The translations under genes were made by a program, and so were the position numbers. Positions 37,836 to 39,025 of a stretch of 64,000 bases of DNA are shown here, piece by piece (position 1 is the stretch's first letter; each line of letters begins with the position of its first letter). The stretch spans positions 1-64,000 of the forward strand of contig NZ_VDMB01000014.1 in assembly GCF_006175995.1 (NCBI RefSeq). Reading direction: 5' to 3'. Below the pieces are notes generated by a model. It searched no databases. It was not told where the DNA came from and saw nothing but the letters and a program-made list of their open reading frames with translations. The DNA comes from Desulfobotulus mexicanus (GTDB taxonomy: Bacteria > Desulfobacterota > Desulfobacteria > Desulfobacterales > ASO4-4).

Positions 37836-38114
37836 ATGAAAATAAACATAACCATTGAAGCAACACCCGAAGAAATCCGTGAAGCCATGGGGCTTCCTGA
37901 TTTGAGACTTTTTCATGAAGAAGTTATGAAGGATCTTCAGGCAAGAGTCAAAGCAGCTCAGGATCCTAAAGAGCTTATGAAAATTATTTTTCCTGGTGGT
38001 GATGTTGGAAAAACTCTATGGGAACAGACCATAAAAAACATGAGTCTTCTCAAGCCGGAATTTTCCATAAGGCCGGAAAAAACAGACCCTGACAAACAAA
38101 AAAACAAGTCATAG
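37836..38114 (+). CDS. Small DUF6489-like protein
   Basis: A 92-residue soluble protein. It begins MKINITIEATPEEIREAMGLPD, a pattern I associate with the DUF6489 family (unknown function, often near fatty-acid or CoA genes). The C-terminal 20 residues are charged and disordered. Its stop lies eight bases before the selenoprotein start and overlaps that gene's ribosome site, so the two are co-expressed. No catalytic motif is seen. Confidence 0.75.
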   Translation: MKINITIEATPEEIREAMGLPDLRLFHEEVMKDLQARVKAAQDPKELMKIIFPGGDVGKTLWEQTIKNMSLLKPEFSIRPEKTDPDKQKNKS

Positions 38115-38122
38115 GAGTTATT

Positions 38123-38473
38123 ATGAACATTATTTCATGGGCTTATATTCGCAAAGGCTGAAAAACATGTCAGAAAGCCCTCGACGTGATCGAGGATAAA
38201 AAAATGACTTTCATGGAAATTGAGGACGCCCGAAAAAATAAAATAGAAGATGAAAAATTAGAAACAATTCTTGCTTCAGTAGATACCATTGTAGTTTCTT
38301 CAGGGAAAAAAATTTTAATTTTCAATAATACACTATCAGAAAAACAGCTTTTTACAGACAAAATTAAGGGTCCTGGAGGTAATCTGAGAGCTCCGGCTCT
38401 TTCTTTTAACAACACACTTATTGTTGGTTTTCATGAAGAAATGTATGATCGTTTTCTTTTTTTAAGTAAATAA
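38123..38473 (+). CDS. ArsC-family selenoprotein (UGA codon 13 read as selenocysteine)
   Basis: A 116-residue thioredoxin-fold protein whose frame is open from the ATG at 38123, with AGGAG six bases before it, to the stop at 38473 apart from one in-frame TGA at 38159-38161. Read as selenocysteine, this gives YIRKGUKTCQKA, a Sec-x-x-Cys redox motif right after the first beta strand. The C-terminal part GPGGNLRAPALSFNNTLIVG, followed by FHEEMY, matches my memory of the ArsC family (seleno)proteins of sulfate reducers. A 6-bp hairpin starts 17 bases after the TGA (bacterial SECIS position). A start-codon search alone would begin at 38186 and lose the active site. The redox substrate is unknown. 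It needs selA, selB, selC and selD elsewhere in the genome. Confidence 0.87.
38179..38195 (+). promoter_or_regulatory. Bacterial SECIS-like hairpin
   Basis: CCTCGA (38179-38184), five-base loop CGTGA with a G near its start, and TCGAGG (38190-38195). The loop begins 24 bases after the TGA, in the range needed for SelB recognition. Confidence 0.75.
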
Positions 38474-38635: not shown

Positions 38636-39025
38636 ATGACAAATCCTGCCGAAGAAAAAAAACTGGAAAAACGCTTTCACTATGATCCTGTAAAAAATCG
38701 TTTTTATGTAAATTTTGAAAATTATAATATTGATAATGAAAGGGATATTCACCGCATTGAATTTCTTGTTGCAGAACAGCTTTCCCATCTTGGCAAACGT
38801 GTCGATGCTATTGTAAACTATGAAAACTTTAATATAAAACAAGATCTTATGCAAAATTACACCAATATGGTAAATAGACTGATGGAACATTTCTATGCTG
38901 GTGTAACCCGTTATACCACCAGCGCTTCCCTAAGAGATGAACTTGGGAAAAGTTTACAGCAACAACAGGTAAAACCTAATTTTTACAGTAGCAACGAAGA
39001 TGCAGAGCGTGCTTTGCAATCTTGA
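38636..39025 (+). CDS. Free-standing domain like the C-terminus of acyl-CoA:acetate CoA-transferases
   Basis: About 129 residues from the ATG at 38636 (AGAGGT upstream). VDAIVNYENFNIKQDLMQNY, then YAGVTRYTTSASLRDELGKS, closely recall the last 120 residues of propionate/acetate CoA-transferases, where the sequence reads VTRYTTSAF near the end. The catalytic Glu and CoA-binding core of those enzymes are absent. It could be a regulator or partner of a CoA-transferase, or a repurposed domain. A strong terminator follows at 39077, so it ends its own transcript. Confidence 0.65.
   Translation: MTNPAEEKKLEKRFHYDPVKNRFYVNFENYNIDNERDIHRIEFLVAEQLSHLGKRVDAIVNYENFNIKQDLMQNYTNMVNRLMEHFYAGVTRYTTSASLRDELGKSLQQQQVKPNFYSSNEDAERALQS

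Follow-up and report, generated by a model that had tools for sequence, protein, structure and literature searches.

Comparative evidence for a UGA-encoded selenocysteine in an ArsC/Spx-like gene of Desulfobotulus

A TGA at codon 13 of an otherwise open frame may mark a broken gene or may encode selenocysteine (Sec), and the locus described here raises the question of which. It lies in the window, by which we mean the whole 64,000-nucleotide stretch of Desulfobotulus DNA that was analysed (Table 1). Read directly with UGA as Sec, the frame runs from an ATG at 38123 to a TAA at 38471-38473 and gives a product of 116 residues, the TGA being its sole interruption. The surrounding residues read ...RKG-U-KTCQKAL..., which places a U-K-T-C active site at positions 13 to 16, in agreement with the U or C followed by xxC of the NF041106 family. 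The frame, the TGA, the ribosome-binding site and the hairpin were all found where a first-pass annotation had placed them, and the GNLRAP and VGFHEE-x-Y motifs that it listed are present at conserved family positions. It had also warned that a plain start search would begin at 38186 and lose the active site. The mechanical open reading frame call did exactly this, starting at a GTG. A putative selenoprotein gene can be read here from raw sequence, and a plain open reading frame search truncates such genes. Scans for promoters and terminators gave results near chance level.

Table 1. Coordinates of the features at the locus, numbered from the first letter of the window.
Feature	Position	Strand	Remarks
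Predicted ArsC/Spx-like selenoprotein CDS, NF041106 family	38123..38473	+	116 aa, Sec13-Lys-Thr-Cys16
In-frame TGA read as Sec13	38159..38161	+	TGA conserved in relatives, TGC in the remainder
Ribosome-binding site AGGAG	38113..38117	+	direct reading
SECIS-like apical hairpin CCTCGA-CGTGA-TCGAGG	38179..38195	+	within the CDS, 17 nt after the UGA
DUF6489-like gene, 92 aa	37836..38114	+	upstream neighbour; DUF6489 21.8 bits, just under the cut-off of 23.6

Searching protein families with UGA translated as Sec, as the first-pass annotation had advised, returned NF041106 ('ArsC family (seleno)protein', ArsC_rel_Se_1) at 105.4 bits against a curated cut-off of 85. The match covered profile positions 1-107 of 107. 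Identity to NF041106 members outside the genus was 32-42%, and W6, Y8, R10, U/C13, G83, G86, L88, R89 and P91 were among the invariant columns of a 37-sequence profile. The gene had been presented as hidden, and this part of the annotation did not hold: the gene is neither hidden nor of a new kind, as both NCBIfam and the selenoprotein literature already contain the family. An ArsC-like selenoprotein in Desulfotalea psychrophila was published in 2006 (PMC1794560), UxxC arsenate-reductase-like selenoproteins were reported from the GOS survey (PMC2398784), a 2022 review gives an 'Arsenate reductase-like protein, UxxC' (PMC9312934), and a 2026 review includes NF041106 itself (PMC13188914). Because the family is already catalogued, the Desulfobotulus gene counts as one more member and not as a discovery. 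Our literature search found no paper joining Desulfobotulus with a selenoprotein. With this locus, a widespread but biochemically uncharacterised family gains a representative in Desulfobotulus, and nearly all such selenoproteins are described as largely uncharacterised in function (PMC13188914).

The TGA proved to be conserved well beyond this genome. All 13 full-length matches (12 relatives and the window's own) contained exactly one TGA in frame. When the order was surveyed, 50 of 389 genomes had a member above the NF041106 cut-off, with one in-frame TGA in 45 of the 50 and no stop in five, each of which carries TGC (Cys) in its place upon translation. One TGA was likewise present in 28 of 28 phylum members above the cut-off, and wherever the locus could be parsed it lay at the same place. 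The two congeners have it as well. The closest named relative, Desulfobotulus alkaliphilus (79% identity), was the only one reached by a single-sequence pattern scan of genome contigs, since such patterns reach close relatives only. The first-pass annotation had named homologues that begin at the later start and lack the U/C-x-x-C site as evidence against recoding; instead, homologues start at the equivalent early position and have U or C at residue 13, and the Cys homologues it suggested looking for are the five with TGC. Small frames can in general be disrupted, but pseudogene decay with a premature stop, or a TGC or TGT misread during sequencing, has next to no chance of explaining the locus and is in practice refuted by a TGA that recurs in independent genomes of many families, including both congeners, with a conserved frame downstream.

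Variation at the active site was confined to particular members. A few of them (L009 in G014, L012 in G019 and L097 in G439) have Ser or Thr in place of the second active-site Cys (UxxS or UxxT) while Sec is kept, so the resolving Cys is not universal and position 13, with Sec or Cys, is the better conserved of the two. Separately, a further ArsC-like group, divergent and likewise carrying a single TGA in frame, scored below the NF041106 cut-off (G111, G237, G252, G454, G722 and G630), and may correspond to the 'distant ArsC homolog' described from Desulfuromonas.

The genome (3.83 Mb, 98% complete) belongs to a Desulfobotulus-related sulfate reducer and encodes the full set of genes expected of a bacterium that recodes UGA. 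We found tRNA-Sec (selC) at 75.4 bits with the anticodon TCA (UCA), together with SelB at 379 bits, SelA at 631 bits and SelD at 381 bits. All four had been proposed for checking, and the lack of selB or selC would have counted against recoding. The conserved TGA, the Sec machinery and the family match support the earlier proposal that the UGA is recoded and not a premature stop, and this comparative evidence supports 38123-38473 as a genuine selenoprotein gene of the NF041106 family. The SelD gene of the same genome (L022, G000:C12:40864-41781) itself has one in-frame TGA, so SelD is probably a selenoprotein too.

A recoded gene is further expected to have a stem-loop shortly 3' of its UGA with a G in the apical loop, and the hairpin has this form. 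Its 6-bp stem (38179-38184 paired with 38190-38195) closes a five-base loop, CGUGA in the transcript. The hairpin was present in the minimum free energy structure, with a z of -2.55 relative to dinucleotide shuffles. Measured against synonymous recoding, it had a P of ~0.008 by hydrogen-bond score and 0.08 by stem length alone. Across 26 distinct order relatives, 89% of cells were paired at the hairpin position, and compensatory cells, in which both sides had changed, numbered 17 versus 5.7 in shuffles (0 of 500 shuffles were as high). Covariation peaked at a slide of 0 and was lower when the partner was slid by 1-3 bases. Weighing the other way, the Desulfobotulus stem is displaced two bases from the order's commonest register, with pairs from 18-34 to 23-29 after the UGA, and its loop retains GU despite the shift. 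The Rfam SECIS model (SECIS_1) gave no match, which says little because it also matched 0 of 14 control genomes; the model is evidently narrow.

The five Cys forms (L025, L029, L035, L042 and L047) all occur in one genus of a single family (f35). In a midpoint-rooted tree they form a single, fully supported clade that lies within the Sec forms, and their genomes keep SelA and SelB. The hairpin is lost in the three that were tested, where the best stems had 3-4 pairs and were no better than synonymous recoding. The simplest reading is one Sec-to-Cys change in organisms still decoding Sec, a type of event previously reported for other families (PMC1794560). A single replacement with the Sec machinery kept provides a natural comparison for what selenium gains the enzyme.

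The neighbourhood of the gene is conserved within the genus. The DUF6489-like gene stands beside the selenoprotein gene in three Desulfobotulus-genus genomes, and its TAG stop (38112-38114) overlaps the ribosome-binding site, as the first-pass annotation had observed. A shared pathway, which it also suggested, was unsupported outside the genus: a search of 146 related genomes located the DUF6489-like gene in only two beyond the genus, one with the two genes on different contigs (G011) and one with no selenoprotein match (G022). When the flanks of 18 loci were clustered, no gene family proved to be a constant neighbour of the selenoprotein gene beyond the genus. The two genes are possibly translationally coupled, and their close spacing suggests co-expression in Desulfobotulus, which does not imply a common pathway. 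A downstream gene of 129 aa (38636-39025 of the window) is also kept in three Desulfobotulus genomes and had no Pfam match.

The AlphaFold2 model of the product had a pLDDT of 93.7. Its top structural matches, with a Z of 8.2-9.3 and an rmsd of 2.5-3.2 over 86-91 residues, were to Spx and ArsC-family proteins, and Foldseek ranked Spx first (E 5e-4). The 37-sequence profile matched Spx and YffB in the PDB, Sec13 aligning with the leading Cys of CxxC in Spx. The protein is accordingly modelled with a predicted ArsC/Spx fold and Sec at the position of Spx Cys10. Profile scores place it outside both named families, as PF03960 matched weakly (12.6 bits against a gathering cut-off of 24) and TIGR01617 (Spx/MgsR) reached 32.3 bits against 75.05. 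We are almost certain of the explanation as a whole, namely an NF041106 selenoprotein gene with a hairpin read by SelB and a Sec13 thiol-type oxidoreductase as its product. SelB carrying Sec-tRNA(Sec) would bind the hairpin and insert Sec at UGA13, and the product would fold as a small thioredoxin-fold oxidoreductase of the ArsC/Spx type. Sec13 would be the nucleophile, with Cys16 usually the resolving thiol of the Sec-x-x-Cys pair. The substrate reduced is most likely a disulfide or other oxidised thiol, and arsenate is less likely. This role is proposed from the fold and active site.

Other readings of function were weighed against these data. In classical ArsC, an Arg directly before the cis-Pro helps bind the oxyanion. 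This residue (the RP in Spx LLRRP) is Ala in nearly all family members (GNLRAP), the best PDB sequence and fold matches are Spx/YffB-type proteins, and no ars operon context was seen in the flanks of the 18 loci, where no gene family recurred outside the genus. We consequently consider it unlikely that the protein acts as a detoxifying arsenate reductase rather than a general thiol-disulfide oxidoreductase, even with its distant ArsC-family similarity in profile and structure and the literature label 'arsenate reductase-like' (PMC9312934, PMC13188914). The long Desulfobotulus branch, the shifted SECIS register and the fixed upstream DUF6489-like partner could together indicate a specialised function, distinct from the remaining NF041106 proteins, and a SelB that recognises the hairpin in a slightly different way, which we hold to be quite improbable. 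It is very improbable that the protein regulates transcription in the manner of Spx, binding RNA polymerase and employing its Sec-x-x-Cys as a redox switch. Its best solved-structure relatives and weak TIGR01617 match do point towards Spx, but the score is well under the cut-off, a highly reactive Sec would be unusual for a slow switch, and Spx is known as a regulator of Gram-positive bacteria.

The thiol-type selenoprotein that we favour can be placed among known systems by degrees of likeness. Spx (PDB 3gfk, 1z3e) and YffB (1rw1) have the same fold and align over nearly the whole length, but at 18-23% identity and below family cut-offs, with LRRP in Spx where the Desulfobotulus protein has LRAP. 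ArsC (PF03960, TIGR00014) has the thioredoxin-like ArsC fold in common with it and differs in having Arg before the cis-Pro, while the selenium-containing arsenate reductase has UxxS (PMC13188914) rather than UxxC. The ArsC-like selenoprotein of Desulfotalea psychrophila (PMC1794560), likened here by description, comes from the same phylum and shares the ArsC-like label and a UGA-encoded Sec. With NF041106, the 'Arsenate reductase-like protein, UxxC', the protein shares the same full-length profile, the UxxC site, and the existence of Sec and Cys forms, and it differs from members generally only by sequence divergence and a SECIS stem shifted by 2 nt.
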